DNA of 64,000 nt from Nitrospira sp. (GTDB lineage Bacteria; Nitrospirota; Nitrospiria; Nitrospirales; Nitrospiraceae). The stretch spans positions 3,114,800 through 3,178,799 of the forward strand of contig CP126122.1 of assembly GCA_030123565.1 (NCBI GenBank). Reading direction: 5' to 3'. Both the position numbers and the translations under genes were made by a program. Shown here one piece after another: positions 12,182-15,923 of this stretch. Each line of letters opens with the position of its first letter. The stretch's first letter is position 1. The notes under the pieces are model-generated. The model worked only from the letters and a program-made list of their open reading frames with translations, was not told the origin of the DNA and did not search any database.

Positions 12182-14125
12182 CTATCCCTCCCGCTCTCCT
12201 TGAGGTGATTTGGTGTCGGCGGGAAGTATTACGGAAATGGCTCCTCCGAGATCACCTTCTTTGAAGCCCTCCTTCTCGTAACCTGAAATGTCCACTTCGC
12301 CCTTTGGTCTCCCGTGACAAGCAAGGCATGCCTTGGTGTAGAAGAGCGGCAATAAGACGCGAACACTCTTATCCGGAAGCCGCTGGGCAATGACGTGGTC
12401 TCCGACCCTTGGATGACTTTTCTGAATGGTCAACAATGTCGCTGTTTCCTCTTCATCGGGTTTGTTGTCGGGATTTCTCGGGTCAATCTCCGGAGGACCG
12501 ATCTGCCTCAACGTGAGGCCGCTTTCCTTGGAGAAACTTGCCGCGACGTGGGTCCCGAACGTGGCGGGGATAAAGCCTTTGAATCCGATCCCCTTCTTGT
12601 TGATGTCCGGCTGAACATCCTGAACCGCTTTCTGCATAAAGTTCGCCAGCTTGCCCAGCAGCGGCTTGGCGCGTTCCGGCATCGCGGCGGATCCCAGCGC
12701 CTGCAAGTCATGCCCGGTCCTCGCAAGAAACTCTTTCCGCAATCGGGCCTGGAACACCGCCGCGGAAAAACCTTTATCCTCAAGTCTTGGATTGTTGATC
12801 GTCGTCTGCGCCCTTCCCAGCACAACCCGTCCCGAGTCCAAGAGCACCACCAACAGTCTGGCTGTCTCACTGGATTCCGCCTCTTCCGAAGTGATCATCT
12901 CGCTGTTCATGGAAGTCCGGATGACGGCCTGTTCACCCACCTTCACCATGCCGGCCAGGACCGGCTCTTTTTCAGTCGCATTCACTCTGCCTGATCCGGC
13001 CAAGCTCGGCTCTTTTCCCACCTTCAGCGGGGAGGATGCAGTCTGTTGCGAAATGGGAGCAGCAATGGCGGCACTGACGGAGGTGGCCGGCACGATCGGC
13101 CGTCCAAGCCTTGAGGGGAAACTCGTGTCGGCGGGCGTCACAGCTCCCTGGTGAGGGGGATTCCCCGACCGGGAGGCGAGGCCGGATCCTCCCCAGGGGA
13201 CATCTATGGGAAAGCCCAGATAGAACAAGAGGGGTAGCGACAGAATGAGGACGGCAGCGAGCATAACGGCCTCCCGTCTTCTCCAAAAAGACGAAGCGTG
13301 GATGTCATCGATCTCGCCCACAACGTGCTTCGCAATCTTGCGTGAGATCATGGGCTGTCGCTGGCGAAAACCGGTCATAAGCGCATTGTCGCAGAGAATG
13401 TTCAGTCGTCTCGGGATCCCCCGCGAAGCCTTGACGATCATGCGGAGCGCAGCAGTCGAAAAAATGGAGACCTGTTCCCTGCTCGCTTGATCGAGCCGAT
13501 GCTGAATGTACGCGAGGCTTTCGTCTTTCGTCAGAGGCAGAATCCTGGCGCGAACGGCGATGCGCTCGCGCACATGACGGACCTCGTGACGCTCCAGCAG
13601 CGTTTCCAGCTCAGGCTGTCCCATGAGCACGATCTGAATCAGCTTTTCATTCGCCGTCTCCAAATTGGTCAGCATCCGAATGCCTTCCAATGTCTCGACC
13701 GGTATGCACTGAGCCTCGTCGATAACGAGCACCACCCTTCCGCCGCTGCTATGTTCCGTCTTTGCCACGTCATGCAACTGCCTCAGCATTTCGGCCTCTT
13801 CGCCGCTGACCGGTTCGGCCCCCAGTTGATGGAGAATCGTGATGAGCAGTCGCTCGAACGTGACGTTGGGATTGTAGAGATGAATCGTTTTCTGTTGGTT
13901 CGGCGGATGCAGGTGCGGGGGGGCGGCGATTTGGAGATATCGACGAAGAATAGTGGTCTTGCCGACACCAACTTCGCCGGTCACAAGGATCACGCCTTTT
14001 CGTTCTTTGATCCCATACAGGATAGAACCCAACGCCTCCCGGTGGCTCGGGCTCAAGAAGAGATTGTCGGCATCAGGCGTGGTGCGGAAGGGTTCTCGGA
14101 CAAGGCCATAGAAATCAGTGTACAT
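12182..14125 (-). CDS. ExeA-like AAA ATPase fused to periplasmic Tll0287-like (DUF3365) haem-motif domain
   Basis: A 647-residue fusion. Residues 1-270 are a GspA/ExeA-type ATPase: MYTDFYGLVREPF start, Walker A GEVGVGKT (50-57), Walker B VVLVIDEAQ (131-139) and the family segment ASRGIPRRLNILCDNALM. A membrane helix at about 286-306 follows a basic stretch. Residues 310-400 are low-complexity linker. The C-terminal 240 residues match the Tll0287-like/DUF3365 fold, with a CLACH haem-attachment motif at 600-604 and GGAISVILP near the end. Known relatives are separate: ExeA drives secretin assembly through a peptidoglycan-binding tail, and Tll0287 domains bind c-type haem. Here the usual tail is replaced by a probable haem sensor. 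No secretion genes are adjacent. Confidence 0.88.
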   Translation of the reverse strand: MYTDFYGLVREPFRTTPDADNLFLSPSHREALGSILYGIKERKGVILVTGEVGVGKTTILRRYLQIAAPPHLHPPNQQKTIHLYNPNVTFERLLITILHQLGAEPVSGEEAEMLRQLHDVAKTEHSSGGRVVLVIDEAQCIPVETLEGIRMLTNLETANEKLIQIVLMGQPELETLLERHEVRHVRERIAVRARILPLTKDESLAYIQHRLDQASREQVSIFSTAALRMIVKASRGIPRRLNILCDNALMTGFRQRQPMISRKIAKHVVGEIDDIHASSFWRRREAVMLAAVLILSLPLLFYLGFPIDVPWGGSGLASRSGNPPHQGAVTPADTSFPSRLGRPIVPATSVSAAIAAPISQQTASSPLKVGKEPSLAGSGRVNATEKEPVLAGMVKVGEQAVIRTSMNSEMITSEEAESSETARLLVVLLDSGRVVLGRAQTTINNPRLEDKGFSAAVFQARLRKEFLARTGHDLQALGSAAMPERAKPLLGKLANFMQKAVQDVQPDINKKGIGFKGFIPATFGTHVAASFSKESGLTLRQIGPPEIDPRNPDNKPDEEETATLLTIQKSHPRVGDHVIAQRLPDKSVRVLLPLFYTKACLACHGRPKGEVDISGYEKEGFKEGDLGGAISVILPADTKSPQGEREG

Positions 14126-14855
14126 GGCTAGGCCTCATTCTTGTCGCGACCGGTGGGCAAAGGGTCGGCGTACGCGATGCGGCAGGATCATGACGAGCAT
14201 GCTCAACCCCCTTCACCGCCGGACGAGAGGTGATAGATCGCATGTTCGCTCGAGCCGGTGACGGCTGATGCGTCCTGATCCTGCGCTGAACGATGTTGAA
14301 AATCAAGCGTGCCGGCAGCAGCCCCAGACCCGATGGCCAAACGGAAAACTAGCGTCGAGGGCTGAGAGCAAGACGTCTCGATCATGGACGGCGTGAACCG
14401 ACCTGTACTGCGTAAGGCGTAACGGACGATCGACGGGCGGCGAAGGACGCACAAGGAAAACAACCCATGACGTGCAAGTCGGAACGGCAGGCGAAACGTG
14501 CACGACCACCAGGCATCGGAATACCCTGATCTGAGGATACCAATGGGGCCCACCCCACGGTTATGACGACGATAGGCCAGTGATGTGAGAGGAACGTGTC
14601 AATCGAATGGCGCTCTTGAGAACTGGCGACGGGGCCCTCACGACCACAGGCCTGCCGGAGTGTGGGCAGCTTTTCTATAGGTCGCCGCGCGAGCTGCATC
14701 ACCCGCCAGCAAAGACCAGCCGGAACCCGGCCCTGGTCGGATGCGGGCGACGGTCCTTCATCAAACAACCACCCGGCCGACAATCATGATTGACTTCGAG
14801 CGGACATTCCCGCTAGGACTGTGACTTCGTCCATCTCCCCTTCGCCTGGTCAGGA
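14126..14855. other. 730-bp intergenic region with no intact gene
   Basis: This gap lies between the divergent ATPase-haem fusion and the acyltransferase gene. Minus-strand frames at 14382-14783 and 14203-14553 show no recognisable protein. The only identifiable content is a decayed copy of the SUI1 gene 3' end at 14699-14751. Promoters for both flanking genes are expected here but none is clear by eye. Confidence 0.5.
14699..14751 (-). pseudogene. SUI1/YciH 3'-end fragment with 1-bp deletion
   Basis: Read on the minus strand, these 53 bases match the last 18 codons of the SUI1 gene at 16057-16110 at most positions, ending in the same ..GFR-x-VFAGG-stop sense. One base is missing (CTGACC has become CGACC), which shifts the frame. 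Flanking sequence is not similar. It is best read as a small duplicated or recombined gene end 1.4 kb from its parent. Confidence 0.65.
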
Positions 14856-15923
14856 ATGATGCAGTCTCGCTGGGATCCCAGATCACCATCGTCCAACCTG
14901 GATTGCCTTCGCTCTATCGCAGTGCTGGCCGTCGTCGCCTGCCATACATTATTGACCCTTGGGTATAAGCCGAGCGACGCAGCCTGCCGTGTCGGCGTCA
15001 TATTGTTCTTCGTCCACACCAGCCTCGTGCTGATGTCGTCCCTCGAGCGGATCGAACAGACGGACGCCCCCCTGTTCAGCACGTTTTACCTTCGCCGCCT
15101 GTTCAGGATCTATCCGCTCAGCATCTTCTGCGTCGCCGTCATCGTCCTGTTCCAACTGCCGCGCGCACCATGGTGGCCCTGGTCATCGCCGGACGCCTTC
15201 ACTATCCTGACGAACCTCTTGTTGTGCATGAATCTTTTCTATAAGGCCGAGGTAACGTCCGTGCTGTGGAGCCTCCCGCTCGAGGTCCAGATGTACGTGT
15301 TTCTGCCTGTCTTGTACCTGGTCGGGAAAACGCACCGGTTGAAGGGCGTGGCGGTAATGTGGGTCGGCGCCGTGGCTGCCGCGCTGGTCCTGCCGGCCGT
15401 TACCGGCCGCCTGTCGATCGCCTACTTCATGCCCTGTTTCGTCGCGGGAGTCGCGGCCTATTTCCTCGGATTCAGGGTCCCGCATCCCCGTCTGCCTTTC
15501 GTCGGCTGGCTCGGGATGATCGGGAGCGGCCTATGGCTCTTTCCCCATGCTTCTACGATGTTCAATGAAGATGTCGCCAATTGGCTGCTGAGCCTGTGGA
15601 TCGGGCTGTCCGCGCCGTTCTTCGTGGAATTGCAACAGACCGCCGTAAAACAGCTCGTCGCGCTGATCGCCCGGTACTCCTATGGAATCTATCTCACACA
15701 TCTGCACGTGCTCTGGTTCACATTCATCGTCCTGAAAGATCAGGCGAAGCCGGTGCAGTACGGCGCCTTTGCGCTGCTGGGGATCGGCATCCCGGTCCTT
15801 CTCTATCATCTGATCGAACATCCGATGATTGGATTCGGCATGAAACTGACCGCGAGGCGGGCCTTGCAGGCGGAGGAACAGGAGCACGCTGGCGGCGAGA
15901 AGATAGTTGGAACAATCAAGTGA
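14856..15923 (+). CDS. acyltransferase family 3 (OafA/YrhL-like) membrane protein
   Basis: A 355-residue multispanning inner-membrane acyltransferase. The N-terminal LDCLRSIAVLAVVACH carries the family arginine and histidine, followed by the RRLFRIYPL loop and roughly ten hydrophobic segments. The late RYSYGIYLTHLHVLWF and LLYHLIEHPMIGFG motifs are also typical. Members O-acylate sugars of lipopolysaccharide, exopolysaccharide or peptidoglycan precursors. No glycan cluster surrounds it, so the target is unknown. Two adjacent ATGs at 14856 follow a CAGGA site. Confidence 0.9.
   Translation: MMQSRWDPRSPSSNLDCLRSIAVLAVVACHTLLTLGYKPSDAACRVGVILFFVHTSLVLMSSLERIEQTDAPLFSTFYLRRLFRIYPLSIFCVAVIVLFQLPRAPWWPWSSPDAFTILTNLLLCMNLFYKAEVTSVLWSLPLEVQMYVFLPVLYLVGKTHRLKGVAVMWVGAVAAALVLPAVTGRLSIAYFMPCFVAGVAAYFLGFRVPHPRLPFVGWLGMIGSGLWLFPHASTMFNEDVANWLLSLWIGLSAPFFVELQQTAVKQLVALIARYSYGIYLTHLHVLWFTFIVLKDQAKPVQYGAFALLGIGIPVLLYHLIEHPMIGFGMKLTARRALQAEEQEHAGGEKIVGTIK

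Follow-up and report, generated by a model that had tools for sequence, protein, structure and literature searches.

An ExeA-like ATPase joined to a putative c-type haem Cache domain in the Nitrospiraceae

Described haem Cache sensors and ExeA-type ATPases

Tll0287-like domains are Cache domains that carry haem c, and they were named sCache_heme in 2026 (PMC12889525). One such domain, linked to membrane helices and HAMP, binds nitric oxide (NO) tightly and forms no stable oxygen complex, and a stand-alone one with an axial cysteine looks redox-like (PMC12889525). The partners described for the family are histidine kinases, MCPs, cyclic-nucleotide enzymes and cytochromes, and AAA proteins are never mentioned (PMC12889525). 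The fusion protein analysed here is encoded in a stretch of 64,000 nucleotides from a Nitrospira sp. genome (contig CP126122.1), which we call the window. It resembles the sCache_heme sensors in its PF11845 match above cut-off, its CxxCH motif and the extracytoplasmic placement of the domain by a membrane helix. Unlike the haem domain of those sensors, which is N-terminal, that of the fusion is C-terminal, follows a single helix and is joined to an AAA+ ATPase.

In ExeA, a cytoplasmic ATPase is linked to a periplasmic domain that binds the wall, and the protein forms multimers when it binds (PMC4098917). Like this ExeA/GspA type II secretion assembly ATPase, the fusion combines a cytoplasmic AAA ATPase with one membrane helix and a periplasmic C-terminal domain; it differs in having no peptidoglycan-binding domain, for which a haem Cache is substituted, and no ExeB-like neighbour was seen. 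The best ATPase profile over residues 1-273 is TIGR03015, the XrtA/PEP-CTERM system-associated ATPase. Unlike members of that family, the fusion scores under the cut-off and lies outside exopolysaccharide loci, and the closed genome of the window gave no match to exosortase with the one model used (TIGR02602). The first-pass annotation knew of no system with this layout; in agreement with the partner list above, the literature we searched holds no account of one, and to our knowledge an ATPase-haem Cache fusion has not previously been described there.

Layout of the fusion protein

The coordinates given in the first-pass annotation, 12182-14125, were right, and the gene lies on the minus strand, which is open across this interval in the ORF listing; the plus strand holds many stops. 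The reading frame begins with ATG, and AGGAGG or GAGG stands at the equivalent place before the start in the five other fusion copies. The annotated order of ATPase, one membrane helix and C-terminal haem-motif domain also held under Pfam, NCBIfam and hydropathy (Table 1).

Table 1. Positions of the fusion gene, its parts and the chemosensory operon (window positions unless a locus or genome is named)
Feature	Position	Strand	Basis
Fusion gene, 647 aa (ExeA-like AAA+ ATPase / membrane helix / linker / sCache_heme (Tll0287-like) domain)	12182..14125	-	ORF; Pfam and NCBIfam; six orthologues
GAGG, Shine-Dalgarno-like, 7 nt upstream of ATG	14133..14136	-	sequence
ExeA/TIGR03015-like AAA+ ATPase module (residues 1-273)	13307..14125	-	profiles; AAA+ fold in model
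Walker A GEVGVGKT (residues 50-57)	13955..13978	-	sequence
Walker B VIDEAQ (residues 134-139)	13709..13726	-	sequence
Single membrane helix (residues 287-305), RRR ahead of helix	13211..13267	-	hydropathy
Linker rich in Pro/Ser/Ala (residues 306-412), fast-evolving	12890..13210	-	dN/dS of region 274-412; pLDDT below 50
sCache_heme / Tll0287-like domain (residues 413-637)	12215..12889	-	Pfam PF11845 over 500-635; extended by aligning stand-alone relatives
CLACH, haem c attachment motif (residues 600-604)	12314..12328	-	sequence
Chemosensory operon	L126:2877-16600 (G000:C1 about 1878876-1892599); L130:4500-18225		

The assignment of the N-terminal half as an ExeA-type ATPase with Walker A and B motifs was borne out by matches to Pfam AAA_22 (residues 41-177, E 7e-27) and to TIGR03015, the best NCBIfam match (E 4e-68; 229.8 bits, under the curated cut-off of 324.5). 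G50, G53, G55 and K56 of Walker A and D136, E137 and Q139 of Walker B are invariant in an alignment of ten relatives, and the key residues of a GIPRR motif at 236-240 are invariant in distant relatives. In the full-length AlphaFold model this half is well modelled and adopts an AAA+ fold, which compares with Orc1/Cdc6, TnsC and MuB at a VIA-align Z of about 20 over residues 1-284. The Orc1/Cdc6, TnsC and MuB class acts as oligomers. The cytoplasmic part matches AAA+ families only and holds no classical signalling output domain (kinase, MCP or GGDEF/EAL) by Pfam and NCBIfam; PG_binding, LysM and SPOR gave no Pfam match anywhere in the protein at E values up to 1. A role in anti-phage defence was considered and rejected, as only weak P-loop matches pointed that way.

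The sole strongly hydrophobic stretch of the protein by hydropathy is VMLAAVLILSLPLLFYLGF (287-305). The RRR ahead of this helix leads us to predict an N-in/C-out topology, with the ATPase cytoplasmic and the C-terminus in the periplasm, the compartment in which haem c is attached to proteins. The linker beyond it is disordered in the full-length model (pLDDT below 50).

The C-terminal domain had been annotated as Tll0287-like (DUF3365), and it matches PF11845 over residues 500-635 with E 4e-18 and 66.8 bits, where the cut-off is 24.1. The CxxCH motif is likewise kept by homologues: every one of the six fusion proteins has CLxCH, conservation being judged on these six together with 12 aligned PF11845 rows, with the stand-alone set that had been selected for CxxCH left out. 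We infer that this domain lies in the periplasm with haem c covalently attached, and that it binds or senses either a small ligand or a redox state. None of the six fusions has a cysteine after the membrane helix other than those of the CxxCH motif, and the Tll0287-type axial cysteine is therefore absent. This agrees with the NO-binding example of the family. Nearly all stand-alone Nitrospira relatives share this absence, so that it is uninformative as evidence for NO sensing and we do not use it as such. H472, M482, M497, H571 and H577 are invariant among the fusions and rare in the stand-alone relatives, and may therefore line the distal side of the haem or take part in coupling.

The haem loop (residues 596-626) falls below pLDDT 50 in the full-length model, and the axial ligand cannot be read from it. 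AlphaFold models of the haem domain alone, for three sequences, reached pLDDT 49 and had no significant fold match. Searching solved structures with the fusion protein as query returned no haem-domain homologue; a family-profile search of solved structures returned Tll0287 (5b82, E 1.5e-12). By alignment and tree, the haem domain of the fusion is closer to the stand-alone than to the MCP-type sCache_heme.

Origin, spread and genomic surroundings

The nearest ATPases, at 50-57% identity, come from a sister family within the order. The expectation that ExeA relatives carry a wall-binding tail was confirmed in them: nearly all of those examined have a C-terminal LysM, scoring above cut-off at L048, L081, L049, L050 and L051 and weakly at L085, and the tail at L084 is LysM-like by eye only. 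The fusion ATPase branches among these LysM-tailed proteins in the tree. It differs from them in bearing sCache_heme in place of the LysM and in its surroundings, as theirs include exopolysaccharide genes: the L048-L051 loci also hold homologues of an XrtA-type (Wzz-like) chain-length determinant and of a tyrosine-autokinase-like protein (annotated in L048). The haem domain has its nearest relatives, at about 45-54% identity, among the secreted Tll0287-like proteins that stand alone in genomes of this order. Such proteins are abundant; PF11845 domains number 12 in the genome of the window, including one within an MCP. LysM tails on the nearest ATPases and stand-alone nearest haem domains together indicate that an ExeA-like ATPase exchanged its wall-binding tail, once, for a haem Cache domain.

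Another ExeA-like ATPase, of about 465-477 aa and with a tail that is TPR-like by eye, occurs in most genomes of the genus (L065:7537-8961, L066:6533-7957, L068:6622-8013); it was not found in the genome of the window.

Whole-genome searches recovered the full-length fusion in 4 of 29 same-genus genomes, with 71-72% identity along the whole length; one carrier is Nitrospira defluvii (FP929003.1, Candidatus Nitrospira defluvii). Two sister-genus genomes, G418 and G401, also encode it (ATPase 54-56% and haem domain 70-71% identical), bringing the carriers to 6 of the 175 family genomes searched. Outside the family, 395 genomes drawn evenly from the phylum yielded no fusion, and viral contigs yielded no relative. 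A contig scan over 85,000 species returned Nitrospira fusions only, its query being two short motifs that distant fusions could escape. In the tree of each half the fusions form one clade with 100% support, and the branching order is the same for both, ((G418,G401),(window,(G023,(G003,G025)))). Monophyly and shared branching order point to one fusion event in the Nitrospiraceae, followed by co-inheritance of the halves. The architecture is rare, narrowly distributed and of single origin.

Both halves are under strong purifying selection and the linker is relaxed: dN/dS is 0.04-0.14 for the ATPase, 0.05-0.11 for the haem domain where measurable and 0.39-0.88 for the helix-plus-linker region (274-412), values that are rough as several synonymous distances are close to saturation. 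The fusion is intact in five species, including two closed genomes besides that of the window. The copy in G401, a sister-genus metagenome-assembled genome (MAG; L111:8809-10596), is interrupted by two in-frame stops in its linker, between ATPase and haem domain, which may reflect decay or a MAG error. Because full-length forms exist in five other species and both halves are under purifying selection, the fusion is a genuine gene, beyond chance.

An SDR gene and a HEAT-like gene flank the fusion in three of the four carriers of the genus, and in 20 other genus genomes these two genes are directly adjacent with nothing between them. The site is clean, whether through gain in few genomes or loss in many. 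In the window an acyltransferase gene (14856-15923) occupies the place that the HEAT-like gene has in the other three fusion genomes, and in G006 a close homologue of this acyltransferase adjoins the HEAT-like gene. The neighbourhood survey proposed in the first-pass annotation gave different pictures for the two genera. No conserved partner gene is linked to the fusion across the four genomes of the window's genus, and no export genes adjoin any of these copies. The sister genus has an HD-GYP-type gene directly downstream, overlapping the fusion stop by 4 nt in G401 and separated by a 9-nt gap in G418, a link that rests on two MAGs, one of them the copy with linker stops. This HD-GYP protein is degenerate, with AHE for HHE and HDIGI for HDxGK, and its gene is a second copy, as G401 and G418 each also have a family member in a chemosensory operon. 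Members of the HD-GYP family (L070:2258-4501, L126:2877-5027) share this degeneracy, with AHE and either HDIGI or HDIGL, and have a C-terminal region homologous to the adjoining Hpt-like protein.

The chemosensory operon is conserved in Nitrospira (Table 1) and runs: secreted sCache_heme, CheY, CheW, MCP, CheA, CheW, CheW, response regulator, Hpt-like, [short ExeA-like ATPase], HD-GYP. Its HD-GYP is homologous to the one beside the sister-genus fusion. The short ATPase adjoins it in three genomes (G006, G000 and G030), and by coordinates a related ATPase lies ahead of an HD-GYP gene in genomes of other families (G037, G049, G051). In the window's genome (G000, L126:4994-5834) a two-frame match to the G006 homologue indicates that the short gene is probably frameshifted. 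Like the fusion ATPase, the short one (L130:15269-16108) is ExeA-like and adjoins the same HD-GYP family; unlike it, it has no membrane helix or sensor domain, is only 31-34% identical and falls in a separate clade. We therefore rejected a derivation of the fusion ATPase from the short chemosensory ATPase. The haem domain of the operon is also far from that of the fusion in the tree. Since both operon parts stand apart from their counterparts in the fusion, sCache_heme, ExeA-like ATPase and HD-GYP came together on two occasions. Elsewhere in the window's genome, a chemoreceptor with an N-terminal sCache_heme (L008, G000:C1:1580843-1581226) is directly a candidate NO sensor of the type described in PMC12889525.

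Possible roles of the fusion

The reading we prefer, at roughly even probability, is that of a single-pass inner-membrane receptor-ATPase, with the haem Cache as input, the ATPase as output and, in the sister genus, the HD-GYP protein as likely partner. The first-pass annotation had proposed a cytoplasmic ATPase coupled to a periplasmic redox or gas sensor, and our analysis supports the layout and domain assignments on which this proposal builds. The main reason to favour a signalling role is that the same parts were assembled twice, and the gene context as a whole, with the sister-genus HD-GYP and the chemosensory operon, leans the same way. Counting against the receptor reading are the closeness of the haem domain to the stand-alone, redox-type sCache_heme, the lack of a conserved neighbour in the window's genus, the degenerate motifs of the HD-GYP partner and the restriction of that link to two MAGs. 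The exchange of LysM for Cache would change the input of the ATPase from contact with peptidoglycan, or the wall, to the state of a haem. A ligand or redox state would act on the haem, with nitric oxide the best candidate ligand by analogy with the characterised fused sCache_heme, and the state of the haem would shift how the Cache domains dimerise or oligomerise. This change would be transmitted through the membrane helix and alter ATPase assembly. The protein probably passes a signal, nitric oxide or redox, into the cell. In the sister genus the HD-GYP protein encoded directly downstream would be the likely output, leading to control of c-di-GMP or of a surface lifestyle; the window's genus would use an unlinked partner, which may be the HD-GYP homologue in the chemosensory operon. 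We infer that a haem-controlled ATPase feeds c-di-GMP or surface-lifestyle control.

The fusion could alternatively have kept the ExeA/XrtA-ATPase job of arranging a machine for export or secretion across the wall, as an envelope-assembly or exopolysaccharide-export ATPase for which the haem Cache would provide no more than a switch that responds to redox, or a new site for docking. We regard this as unlikely, although the top profile is that of the XrtA/PEP-CTERM-associated ATPase, the nearest relatives sit with chain-length determinant and tyrosine autokinase genes, and ExeA assembles its secretin using an ATPase and a periplasmic wall-binding domain (PMC4098917). Against it stand the score under the TIGR03015 cut-off, the missing TIGR02602 match, the lack of a wall-binding domain match and four genus copies with no adjoining export genes.

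Quite improbable, in our judgement, is a membrane-tethered redox cytochrome whose haem domain carries electrons or buffers periplasmic redox, as suggested for stand-alone sCache_heme, with the ATPase serving only assembly or oligomerisation. The haem domain does group with secreted stand-alone domains of the same genomes, and stand-alone members looked redox-type in PMC12889525. The redox-type example, however, has the axial cysteine that the fusion lacks, and an ATPase that keeps all its catalytic motifs, conserved as strongly as the haem domain, is hard to square with a mere anchor. A chance or decaying fusion whose halves have no joint function would fit the narrow spread and the stops in G401, but is very improbable given intact copies in five species, low dN/dS in both halves and their shared branching order.

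Returning to the receptor-ATPase, we put forward tentatively, as possible rather than probable, its fullest form: a periplasmic c-type haem Cache that responds to NO or redox would directly control a cytoplasmic AAA+ ATPase, with c-di-GMP turnover or surface behaviour as output via HD-GYP, making it a new class of transmembrane transducer in bacteria that live on nitrite. An AAA+ ATPase as partner of a haem Cache would be a new type of output for a family described in 2026 with conventional ones. The replacement of LysM by a haem Cache would mean that the periplasmic tail of ExeA-like ATPases is, in general, an interchangeable input. Periplasmic sensing of NO or redox is a poorly understood field. 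Nitrospira live on nitrite and may encounter NO, and a sensor of this kind could link their nitrogen chemistry with biofilm life.
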